This document shows positions 34,227 through 38,109 of a DNA stretch of 64,000 nucleotides, piece by piece. This stretch comes from Bacteriovorax sp. BSW11_IV (GTDB taxonomy: Bacteria > Bdellovibrionota > Bacteriovoracia > Bacteriovoracales > Bacteriovoracaceae), in the NCBI RefSeq assembly GCF_000447755.1, contig NZ_AUNE01000058.1, positions 1 through 64,000 on the forward strand, written 5' to 3'. The notes below the pieces were generated by a model, which did not search any database, was not told the DNA's origin, and was given only the letters and a program-made list of their open reading frames with translations. The position numbers and the translations under genes are program-made. Each line of letters starts with the position of its first letter. Positions within the stretch are counted from its first letter, which is position 1.

Positions 34227-37200
34227 ATGAAAAGAATATTTATTGTCTTATTGTACCTCATTCCTTTTATCTCATTTGCAAATTCAACTTGCCCAGTTAA
34301 GAGTAAGTTGATTGATCAGTACGAAACGAAAAAGGACTTTTATTCAAAATCCATCGAAGGAATCGATCAGATTCTGAGTGGGAATTTCACAACTCAGATG
34401 CCTTTAACCACGATTTTTGGTCCTGAAATCGCGGGCGAGGATGTTCAAACTCTAATAACGACATATAAAAAACAAGTAGAAGACATTTCACACGTCCCTG
34501 ATGAATTAGAATATCTTGCCAATTGCCTAAGAGAAGTTAAAGAAGATACCAAGTATATTGAGTTGATCAATTCTTGGCGCAGACTTTATTTAAAGAAAAT
34601 TGAGCTTCTTGAAAAAAACAGCAATTTAGATAGCCTCTTGAAGAAGACCATGGCCAATGCTCAGGCGCTACCTGAATTTGCAGATAAAATAAGCCGTGAA
34701 AAAGAACAAGATGAAAAACTAAAGCAAGAGATCACTGAAAAGATTAGTGATACCCAGGCCCAAATGGTGGCCACAGAAGATCAAAATTTAAAAGACATAA
34801 AAGCGGCCATTGTTGAATTGGAAAAAGTGAAGGTTCAAATACTAAATATCAACTTGGCCCAAGCAAAAATCCTTGAAGATGAATTGCGCTTTTATAAAGA
34901 CAAGTCTCTTGTGGTTGGCCGCGTTTCCGGAGAAATCGACAAGATTAAAGGGGTGGCCTTAGAAGATACTTTCTTTGAAGTTACGACGATTTGGGAAGAT
35001 GTTGTAAAAAAAGGATTTCATCTTTTTTCAAAACAGTTAAAGTCCCTAAACTTTCCAGAAATGCCATCGAGATCAAATTTTGCTGAAAGTAGTGATGAGG
35101 CAAAAAAAGAAATTGAAAATATAAACCGTGTTGTTCTTGAAATAGAAAATCTTAAAGAAAAGACTCTCGCATCTATTTCATTGAAGAGTGATCAAGAACT
35201 CCAAATGCACTACAATTTGTTGTTTCAGGTTAGTTCCACAAGACAGGCCCTTTATGAAAGGTTAGGAAAGAGTTTTATTTTTGAGAAAGTCTTTACCATG
35301 AGATTTTGGCAAGATTTAAAATATGAGCTGTTGTCAGTGCCCTACAAGATTGTATCTTTTCTGTATTCGCGAGTCATTTATGTCAAAGATGCACTTTCTC
35401 TAGGTAAAAAAGGAGTGCGTCGCCTTATTTTTGATGGGCTTGGATTTGTTGTATTTTTACTTGGTCTTTACGTCATTTCTCTGGGTGTTAATTATTCAGA
35501 ACATAAAATTGATAAAGTAAAGAGTGCGCTTCTAATCTCTGAAAAATTTCGTTCTACAGGAAGACTGTTTTCTATTTGGTGGCAAAGGTTACGCCCGGCC
35601 TATCGCTTACTCTTATGGCTCTATATTACTTATCTTATAGAGAATCATTATTACTTCACTCATATTGAAGATTTGCGCTTTATTATCCCATTTGTACAAG
35701 TCTTTATTGTCTATTCAATCTTTAAAATTGCCATTGTTGGTTTTTTAAGTTCAATTGCTATTCTCGAAATTCGCAATATCCACGCCTTTAGAATTAAGGC
35801 CTATCACTCTGCCAATTCACTCGGAAAGATTTTCCTTTACTACTTTATTTCATTAATTCTACTGGAAGAAAGTTTGGGGAAAGTTTACGTTTATTCAATT
35901 ATTTCTCTAATGGCCTTTGGTCTTACTCTTTATAGAGTCAGTATTCTTGCGACAGATTGGCACGACACTATTTTAAGATTTCTTGAAAAGAAAGTTTCGA
36001 CAAAGGTTTACACTCTAATTGAGATGATTGAAAAAAAATGCCCTCCCTGGATGGCCTCTTTTGTTCTCTTAATTATCAGTGTTATTGTCATGCTCTTTAA
36101 TGTCTTTATTTCATTAACAGAAAATCTCGAAGTTTCTAAGAAATTATCGGCCAAGTTATTTAGAAGACAACTTGAGAACATTGAAGTCGCAACAGTTGAA
36201 GTCGGTCGTGATAAATTACCCCAAGATTACTTAGATATTTTCACGATACGCTCTCTAGAAGAGTCAGATCTACTCATTGCTCCGGACCCTCAATTATCCC
36301 AAGGTATTTGTGATGAGATCAATGAATGGCTGGGCGAGCGCGCTGAAGAGCATTCACTGGTTCTCTATGGTGACAAGGGTGTTGGGAAGACGACGCTCAT
36401 GAAATATGTCATGAGTACTTATGAGGACAACAATGATGTGAATGTTATCTATCATAAGGTTCCTGCCAAATTAGCGACGAGAGATGGACTGCGAAATTAT
36501 ATTAAAGAACTTCTTGGTTTCAAAGAAGAAGAGCGATTTGATATTTTAAGTATCGATAATAGATTAGAGAAAAAAACGGTGGTCTTTTTAGATGAAGTTC
36601 AAAATGTTTTTTTATCTCGCTCTGGAGGATTTGAGGCCTATAACGAGCTAATAAATCTTGTGAATCTTGGGACAAAAAATATATTTTGGTGCTTTTCTTT
36701 CAATCGTTATAGTTGGATTTACTTAGATAGGGCCTTTGGAAGAAATCAGTTTTTCAGAAATGTTTTTGCCTTATCAGGTTGGTCTGATGAGAGAATTAAA
36801 GAGCTTATTATGAAACGTCATAATAAGACCGATTATAAATTGTCTTTTGATTTTCTCATTAGCGCCACAAATGGAAGTGAAGAAATTGATAGTTATGCTT
36901 CCATTGAATCCCGTTTTTTTAAACTTCTATGGGAGCTCTCTAACGGAAACCCTCGATGCGCAATCTCTCTATGGGTTTCAGCCCTGAGAAAAAGAGGAGA
37001 GAAGTCATTTGTCGTAAATGTTCCCAAACTCTACGATGGTGATGAATTAATGGGTCTTTCTGATGATACGCTCTTTGTTTTGGCAGAGGTCTTAAAGCAT
37101 GAAAACCTCTCAGCGAAGGAAATTACATTAACAACATATTTACCAATAGGTCTTGTACGCAATGCTATTAAAGTCGCCTCTGAAGGGGGGCTACTCTATA

Positions 37201-37292
37201 AAGACACAAGAGGGCGTTTTATGCTCGATATCTTGAGTCAGTACAGTATTATTAAATTTTTAAAGTCAAAGAATTTCATCTATGGAAACTAA
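34227..37292 (+). CDS. Large envelope protein: periplasmic coil, multi-helix membrane part and cytosolic P-loop NTPase
   Basis: I do not recognise this 1021-residue protein as a whole. It has a signal peptide (MKRIFIVLLYLIPFISFA), a ~370-residue, mostly helical and coiled-coil, Lys/Glu-rich region, then about six membrane helices between residues ~400 and ~632, and a C-terminal cytosolic NTPase domain. Walker A is LYGDKGVGKTTL (about 711-721), Walker B is VVFLDEVQNVF (about 785-795), and CFSFNRYSW may be sensor 1. A winged-helix-like end follows. The periplasmic-coil-plus-helices layout resembles the front part of MscK/KefA channels. The last 11 bases overlap an MscS channel gene, so the two products probably work together, perhaps as an NTPase-controlled channel. 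Confidence 0.7.
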   Translation: MKRIFIVLLYLIPFISFANSTCPVKSKLIDQYETKKDFYSKSIEGIDQILSGNFTTQMPLTTIFGPEIAGEDVQTLITTYKKQVEDISHVPDELEYLANCLREVKEDTKYIELINSWRRLYLKKIELLEKNSNLDSLLKKTMANAQALPEFADKISREKEQDEKLKQEITEKISDTQAQMVATEDQNLKDIKAAIVELEKVKVQILNINLAQAKILEDELRFYKDKSLVVGRVSGEIDKIKGVALEDTFFEVTTIWEDVVKKGFHLFSKQLKSLNFPEMPSRSNFAESSDEAKKEIENINRVVLEIENLKEKTLASISLKSDQELQMHYNLLFQVSSTRQALYERLGKSFIFEKVFTMRFWQDLKYELLSVPYKIVSFLYSRVIYVKDALSLGKKGVRRLIFDGLGFVVFLLGLYVISLGVNYSEHKIDKVKSALLISEKFRSTGRLFSIWWQRLRPAYRLLLWLYITYLIENHYYFTHIEDLRFIIPFVQVFIVYSIFKIAIVGFLSSIAILEIRNIHAFRIKAYHSANSLGKIFLYYFISLILLEESLGKVYVYSIISLMAFGLTLYRVSILATDWHDTILRFLEKKVSTKVYTLIEMIEKKCPPWMASFVLLIISVIVMLFNVFISLTENLEVSKKLSAKLFRRQLENIEVATVEVGRDKLPQDYLDIFTIRSLEESDLLIAPDPQLSQGICDEINEWLGERAEEHSLVLYGDKGVGKTTLMKYVMSTYEDNNDVNVIYHKVPAKLATRDGLRNYIKELLGFKEEERFDILSIDNRLEKKTVVFLDEVQNVFLSRSGGFEAYNELINLVNLGTKNIFWCFSFNRYSWIYLDRAFGRNQFFRNVFALSGWSDERIKELIMKRHNKTDYKLSFDFLISATNGSEEIDSYASIESRFFKLLWELSNGNPRCAISLWVSALRKRGEKSFVVNVPKLYDGDELMGLSDDTLFVLAEVLKHENLSAKEITLTTYLPIGLVRNAIKVASEGGLLYKDTRGRFMLDILSQYSIIKFLKSKNFIYGN

Positions 37293-38109
37293 TTCAGAAA
37301 AAAGCGTTCTCTATGTTTTAGACATTTTGAAGATTGATAAAATCATCATGTTTGCATTGGCCATTTTTGCCATTGTGCTCTTTGTGAGACTACTCAACCA
37401 CTGGTCTATATATGTGCAGAAGAAGTTTTCATCTAAGAGATTAATGATCTTACAAGTTACAACTATCATCTCATTCATTGCATATCTTTTTGGCTCAGTT
37501 GGTTTTTTCTATATAATATTTGAGCCCACAAAAGAAATTATGGTGGCAGTTGGTGGTACTGCGGCCGTAGCTTTCGGTTTTGCTCTAAAGGATCTCGTTG
37601 GTTCTGTTATTGCTGGTTTCATTTTATTATTTGATCGTCCATTTCAAGTGGGAGATCGTGTTGAATTTGATAGCTATTACGGTGAAATTAAGAGTATTGG
37701 CCTACGAACAGTTCGTTTACAGACCTTAGATGATAATCAGATTACAATTCCAAATTTAAAATTTTTATCTGACTGTGTATCAAGTGGAAATACTGGTGCC
37801 CTAGATATGATGATTGTTAGCACTTTTTATGTTTCCATTTTTGAAGACTTATCAAAGGTCAAAGACATCCTCTATGAAGTCGTTATCACAAGTCGATTCG
37901 CTTATCTCGAAAAGAATGTTTCTATTGCGTTTGAAGAGATCGCCATTTCAAATACTTTTGCCATCAAAGTTGGGGTAAAGGCCTATGTTTTAGATGTAAA
38001 ATATGAAAAGGCCTTCCAAAGTGATGTGGTTTCCCGTGGTAATTTGGAGCTCAATAATCATGGCATAAAAAGGCCAATATTGCCTCAAGTTCAAGGCGAG
38101 AGCGTATAA
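37282..38109 (+). CDS. MscS-family mechanosensitive ion channel
   Basis: The 275-residue protein has about three membrane helices and the MscS pore and beta-domain signature: VGGTAAVAFGFALKDLVGS (pore helix TM3, Gly/Ala-rich), ILLFDRPFQVGDRVEF, then GEIKSIGLRTVRLQTLDD and ITIPNLKFL. MscS forms a heptamer that opens under membrane tension and releases solutes. There is no long N-terminal periplasmic domain; that part seems to be supplied by the preceding gene. Its ATG lies inside the upstream gene (overlap 37282-37292). Confidence 0.93.
   Translation: METNSEKSVLYVLDILKIDKIIMFALAIFAIVLFVRLLNHWSIYVQKKFSSKRLMILQVTTIISFIAYLFGSVGFFYIIFEPTKEIMVAVGGTAAVAFGFALKDLVGSVIAGFILLFDRPFQVGDRVEFDSYYGEIKSIGLRTVRLQTLDDNQITIPNLKFLSDCVSSGNTGALDMMIVSTFYVSIFEDLSKVKDILYEVVITSRFAYLEKNVSIAFEEIAISNTFAIKVGVKAYVLDVKYEKAFQSDVVSRGNLELNNHGIKRPILPQVQGESV

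Follow-up and report, generated by a model that had tools for sequence, protein, structure and literature searches.

The 64,000-nucleotide stretch analysed here (the window; positions 1 to 64,000 of contig NZ_AUNE01000058.1 of Bacteriovorax sp. BSW11_IV, whose genome is 3.65 Mb) carries two overlapping genes, the first encoding a 1021-residue membrane protein with an AAA+ domain (hereafter the front protein) and the second a 275-residue channel protein of the MscS family. Some 75 genomes from several bacterial groups keep the pair together, and this points to a kind of release valve under ATP-dependent control that has not been described. The pairing is obligate, the membrane front of the AAA+ protein is exchanged between lineages and the paired MscS proteins carry a residue signature of their own. 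On balance, we lean slightly towards a reading in which the two products form one membrane complex, composed of an MscS-type channel and a dedicated AAA+ regulator and providing ATP-dependent control in osmotic or ion homeostasis.

Obligate pairing of the two genes

The front gene is an open reading frame (ORF) at positions 34227..37292 and the MscS gene one at 37282..38109, both on the forward strand as are all features of the window given below. As reported in a preliminary description of this DNA, they overlap by 11 base pairs (bp; 37282..37292, letters ATGGAAACTAA). The front gene was detected in 43 of the 129 genomes of the order, and an MscS gene follows it directly in all 40 loci having sequence beyond the front gene. 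The overlap measures 11 bp in 29 of these 40 loci, 8 bp in seven and 14 bp in two, the last two loci showing a 10-bp gap and a 47-bp overlap (8 bp with the next ATG), respectively. The 11-bp overlap suggests translational coupling. An MscS of the partner type (240-434 bits) was found in 64 out of 369 Bdellovibrionota genomes and the front gene was present in every one of them (64/64). The next-best MscS proteins (153-156 bits, genomes G271 and G276) stand alone, with no neighbouring AAA+ gene of the front type. Four strong front matches without MscS are located at contig ends; every front gene with readable downstream DNA has an MscS gene next to it, usually with an overlap of 11 or 8 bp.

The adjacency seen in the source genome extends well outside it, to several phyla. 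Pairs also occur in Alphaproteobacteria, Gammaproteobacteria, Gallionellaceae, other proteobacterial metagenome-assembled genomes (MAGs) and one spirochaete MAG, MAG taxon names being those given in their records. Chance neighbours are excluded by the recurrence of order, overlap and co-occurrence across loci. In Caulobacter sp. NIBR2454, Novosphingobium sp. PP1Y and N. pentaromativorans US6-1 the pair is found in plasmid or chromid records, and these pairs are annotated, where an annotation is present, as an ATP-binding protein or AAA family ATPase together with a mechanosensitive channel. On the Caulobacter sp. NIBR2454 plasmid (L203, 6729-8572), two MscS-type genes that differ from each other stand in tandem behind the AAA+ gene.

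No third gene was found to be constant beside the pair across the loci. NCBIfam names neither the front protein nor the MscS above its cut-offs, and no known family in the family databases covers the layout of the two. A literature search for an MscS-AAA+ or nucleotide triphosphatase (NTPase) system found none, most subscription papers lying outside its coverage; within these limits, the initial impression that no such layout has been described still holds.

The AAA+ protein and its MscS partner

The signal peptide, periplasmic coil, roughly six membrane helices, Walker motifs and winged-helix end attributed earlier to the front protein were all recovered. Its AlphaFold2 model (64-row alignment; mean predicted local distance difference test score, pLDDT, 89.3; predicted template modelling score, pTM, 0.67) predicts a long coil of helices that leads into a membrane bundle, followed by an alpha/beta NTPase and finally a winged helix (ca. 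residues 938-1000). Residues 1-20 (34227..34286; MKRIFIVLLYLIPFISFANS), with a hydrophobic peak at residue 13, would correspond to a signal peptide. They are followed by the putative periplasmic coil (residues 21-395; 34287..35411), helical in the model, in which Cys22 and Cys100 are conserved wherever the coil is present (38/64 and 40/64 in the alignment, nearly all others being gaps). The coil is missing or much shorter in front versions of 620-780 residues. The membrane part (residues 396-640; 35412..36146) contains about six hydrophobic helices as indicated by hydropathy (peaks at residues 409, 469, 498, 541, 563 and 618) and loop charges, and shows a remote hhalign match to the first two transmembrane helices (TM1-TM2) of MscK/MscM (see below). 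Within residues 396-655 (35412-36190), the positively charged loops are those after TM1, TM3 and TM5, which places them inside by loop charge. In loci L062 and L096 (G033), an in-frame stop interrupts the front gene, leaving pieces of 137 and 619 residues in L096, and the MscS gene is intact.

The NTPase suspected from the sequence is real: the front protein matches Pfam AAA_22 (E 1.9e-9, residues 708-817), carries both Walker motifs and adopts an AAA+ fold in the model. VIA-align, Pfam and conservation define an AAA+ domain of the Orc/Cdc6/TnsC type at residues 690-930 (36294..37016), including a GNPR motif. Walker A (GDKGVGKTT, residues 715-723; 36369..36395) and Walker B (VVFLDE, residues 785-790; 36579..36596) are supported by motif conservation in the alignment, with G715, G718 and G720 invariant, K721 present in 62/64 and D789 in 61/64. 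The same alignment points to R844 (43/64) as candidate arginine finger and to R910 (46/64) as candidate sensor-2 residue. In three loci (L064, L073 and L074) the Walker A lysine is replaced by arginine or the next Thr/Ser is lost, and L073 and L074 have also lost the Walker B aspartate; the gene pair is nonetheless kept. Some lineages thus seem able to do without binding or hydrolysing the nucleotide.

The winged-helix end (residues 935-1021; 37029..37289) is supported by the secondary structure of the model and aligns with the C-terminal parts of Orc2 and TnsC. It includes the conserved C-terminal motif L...KNFIY (residues 1012-1019; 37260..37283), a possible docking peptide: in the general form L...[KR]N[FL][IL]Y, L1012 is found in 64/64, N1016 in 63/64 and Y1019 in 60/64 sequences. 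The best structural matches of the C-terminal part were Orc/Cdc6 and TnsC: aligned with A. pernix Orc2 by VIA-align, the predicted AAA+ fold, lid and winged helix scored a Z of 15.8 (328 residues, root-mean-square deviation 5.9, 15% identity). The fold-search list was filled by AAA+ matches and is uninformative, either way, on the coil and membrane part and on MscK. A search of solved structures for sequence relatives of the front protein gave nothing beyond generic P-loop or coiled-coil matches. The front protein thus has in common with Orc/Cdc6, TnsC and initiator-clade AAA+ proteins the AAA+ fold, lid and winged helix (Z 14-16) as well as Walker A and B. It differs from Orc/Cdc6 and TnsC in being coupled to a channel gene, in its low identity (ca. 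15%) and in that the constant surroundings of the pair are devoid of replication or transposition genes.

The product of the second gene is a member of the MscS family by its beta-domain and predicted fold. PF00924 (MS_channel_2nd; 37591..37773) was matched with an E value of 1.9e-18 and 66.7 bits against a cut-off of 20.2, and the AlphaFold2 model (pLDDT 86.3) displays three transmembrane helices with cytosolic beta and alpha-beta domains. Among solved structures this model is nearest to the E. coli MscK core (Z 17.2), followed by MscS (Z 15-16), over ca. 250-265 residues. Its N-terminus is expected to be in the periplasm. The three helices, the beta and alpha-beta domains and the Gly/Ala pattern of the pore helix are shared with the MscS of E. 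coli, T. tengcongensis and H. pylori, from which the partner differs by its obligate AAA+ partner gene and by a distinct residue signature in the cytosolic domains. This signature (N170, G172, L174, M177, E199, S204, K211, Y235, V239, E242 and R252) is rare in unpaired MscS from related genomes. It is mostly located in the cytosolic alpha-beta part, and also occurs in partners of the soluble-type AAA+ proteins described below. Pairwise distances of the MscS correlate with those of the NTPase and winged-helix half (r 0.87) and of the coil (0.79). When 63 paired MscS were placed in a tree with 15 unpaired ones, partners of membrane-front proteins formed one group (support 0.71) and partners of the soluble type another (0.997). 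The source genome has three further MscS genes without an AAA+ partner of the front type.

Exchangeable membrane fronts and the relation to MscK

A profile of the NTPase and winged-helix half alone was used to find distant relatives. In gammaproteobacteria, this half occurs without a membrane front in 5 of the 274 genomes sampled, four of the AAA+ proteins having 392-428 residues and one 791 with a helical-looking N-terminus. Each of the five genes is directly followed by an MscS gene (198-224 bits with the partner profile), and these soluble AAA+ proteins end in a similar tail, which in most cases does not reach into the MscS start codon. In three Bdellovibrionota genomes, the NTPase and winged helix lie at the end of a protein of 1406-1417 residues that begins with a CPA2 cation/proton exchanger (PF00999; two of the three were scanned, with E values of 1e-28 and 3e-23), the next gene being MscS-like (PF00924, ca. 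1e-7). Front length also varies within the Bdellovibrionota, from ca. 1020 residues (coil and helices) to ca. 760 and to 620-640 (helices and hardly any coil). One further candidate (L198, G457) turned out to be a false relative, an ExeA-like ATPase. Since the NTPase and winged helix stay with MscS even where the membrane front has been replaced or is lacking, the constant unit is the AAA+ and winged-helix module plus MscS. From these architectures, we read the coil, membrane and antiporter parts as input modules attached to this unit.

One of the fusions is preceded directly by TrkA and TrkH, so that in L153 (61-7667, G201) TrkA, TrkH, the CPA2 antiporter-AAA+ fusion and the MscS-like gene are consecutive, possibly as a combined operon for uptake, exchange and release of K+. 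This arrangement recalls Kef-type CPA2 antiporters and Trk systems in that a CPA2 exchanger carries a distant version of the NTPase and winged helix, with the MscS-like gene behind and, in this genome, TrkA-TrkH before. It differs from Kef-type antiporters since Pfam finds no TrkA_N in the fusion and the NTPase ends the chain; the 1021-residue front protein itself has no exchanger.

The preliminary description had interpreted the pair as a split MscK whose front half gained an NTPase. E. coli MscK is a single chain of 1120 residues with a periplasmic domain of ca. 500 residues and no NTPase, and has eleven transmembrane helices of which the outer six form a peripheral bundle (PMC9653487). Like MscK/KefA and MscM, the pair combines an MscS core with membrane helices at its periphery and a helical domain in the periplasm, yet it consists of two genes at every locus instead of one chain and has an AAA+ domain after the membrane part. 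When hhalign was used to compare the membrane part with an alignment that joined E. coli MscK and MscM to 30 of their gammaproteobacterial relatives, 76 columns spanning TM1, a charged loop and TM2 of the front protein were aligned with a probability of 53.6%, which is below usual confidence, and a score of 47.6; decoys (one reversed and 30 block-shuffled) reached at most 28.7. PF12794 (MscS_TM) was not detected in the front protein at E values up to 1. The remote resemblance of TM1-TM2 is suggestive rather than conclusive for part of that interpretation, and in systems of the window type an MscK-like sensor half may sit on a chain separate from the pore. It does not hold in general, because the five gammaproteobacterial genomes have no front and the three Bdellovibrionota genomes have the CPA2 fusion.

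Proposed control of the channel and competing explanations

Several lines of evidence favour an AAA+/MscS complex: the obligate pairing, the fixed order with overlap, the recurrence of this order in several phyla, the persistence of the unit through changes of the membrane front, the mostly cytosolic signature of the paired MscS, the correlated distances and the lack of a constant third gene. In such a complex, for which we infer physical contact, stoichiometry, use of ATP, an effect on gating and a physiological role, the AAA+ domain and winged helix would lie in the cytosol beside the alpha-beta cage of the channel, docking probably in part via the conserved KNFIY tail. The nucleotide state of the AAA+ domain would raise or lower the opening tension of the channel, affect its inactivation or reset it once it has opened, and solute release would thereby follow the cell's energy or signalling state. 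The membrane bundle and coil, perhaps derived from MscK, would bring tension or periplasmic signals (ions, cell wall) to the assembly, the input in other bacteria being a CPA2 antiporter or none. Both MscS and MscK form heptamers (PMC9653487). Since TnsC, which is structurally related to the front AAA+ domain, is also heptameric in some structures, a matching AAA+ ring is conceivable as a speculation. That the pair represents a new class of mechanosensitive channels, with opening governed by an AAA+ protein on the cytosolic cage and exchangeable inputs in several phyla, acting as a valve gated by energy or by a signal, is a more tentative proposal, to which we give slightly less than an even chance.

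The homeostasis part is favoured by ion and osmolyte neighbours, namely CPA2/Trk, sucrose-6-phosphate phosphatase and second MscS genes. In ca. 8 of 65 loci (L043, L046, L049, L058, L063, L073, L116 and L156) a second, different MscS gene lies a few genes away at most, and a sucrose-6-phosphate phosphatase gene is found beside the soluble pair in two gammaproteobacteria. In the two gammaproteobacterial loci (L194, 4335-7340; L195, 4669-7702) an alpha-glucan phosphorylase gene is also present. Genes for ATP-grasp (RimK-like), aspartoacylase-like and RimB-like proteins adjoin the pair in ca. 8 genomes (L035, L039, L047, L048, L053 and others).

A number of observations weigh against the proposed complex. 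A periplasmic domain or signal peptide followed by six crossing helices would leave the NTPase outside the cell, so that one helix probably does not cross the membrane, or the helix count is wrong. Contact between the AAA+ protein and MscS is deduced. K721 is replaced by arginine in L064 and L073, D789 is lost in three front proteins and R844 is a glycine in 16/64, so that some members may not require hydrolysis. The KNFIY tail overlaps the MscS start codon in part and is not retained by alphaproteobacterial front proteins. The correlation between the NTPase half and MscS owes much to common descent, and the MscS tree does not unite the partners of membrane-front and soluble-type proteins in one clade; this would fit either several origins of the pairing or poor resolution of the tree. 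Finally, the osmolyte-gene neighbours come from few, partly related genomes.

The AAA+ protein might instead be an assembly or quality-control factor that inserts, assembles or dismantles the heptameric MscS without a part in gating. The AAA+ fold and the obligate pairing fit this explanation, as AAA+ proteins commonly remodel their partners, but the three other MscS genes of the source genome do without such a partner, initiator-clade AAA+ proteins are usually switches rather than unfoldases, and swapped membrane inputs (coil, antiporter) are better suited to signalling. We regard it as unlikely.

Quite improbable, in our view, is a defence or cell-death effector, with a STAND/AAA+-like sensor that responds to infection by opening the MscS pore and so kills the cell or arrests it; a defence role had been raised in the preliminary description. 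The front protein does share with STAND/nSTAND NTPases a P-loop, a GNP motif, a winged helix and weak Pfam matches, Walker B is degenerate in some members and the distribution of the front gene is patchy. However, its several STAND-type Pfam matches all fall below curated cut-offs and it has no repeat sensor domains. PADLOC gave no full-length model match for the pair, only partial P-loop ones at E 1e-4 or worse; no defence system was matched among the window neighbours except for generic helicase matches, and a scan of viral contigs found no viral copies of the pair. The steady co-divergence of the two proteins and the ion and osmolyte genes, which are the informative neighbours, also argue against this role, which was left without support.

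In Orc/Cdc6 and TnsC, an AAA+ fold followed by a winged helix binds DNA, and the similar arrangement in the front protein could also belong to a membrane-tied transcription regulator using the channel as tension sensor. We find this more improbable still, given that no conserved target gene lies beside the pair and that an MscS-type gene invariably accompanies the soluble forms and those fused to the antiporter. That the two genes share an operon for expression only, with products acting separately, is the least likely of these readings and hardly fits the 64/64 co-occurrence, the 40/40 adjacency, the conserved overlap and the persistence of the pair in several phyla and through swaps of the membrane front.

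MscS channels are regarded as passive, tension-driven valves that are sometimes tuned by a domain of the same chain. If the AAA+/MscS complex exists as proposed, some bacteria would actively set or reset an MscS valve by means of a conserved partner ATPase, which is testable in isolates having the pair, such as Novosphingobium sp. PP1Y, N. pentaromativorans US6-1, Caulobacter sp. NIBR2454 and Bacteriovorax sp. DB6_IX. It could further account for the role of the very large MscK-type front parts, and would connect channel control, by way of one exchangeable module, with osmolyte synthesis and with cation transport (Trk, CPA2).

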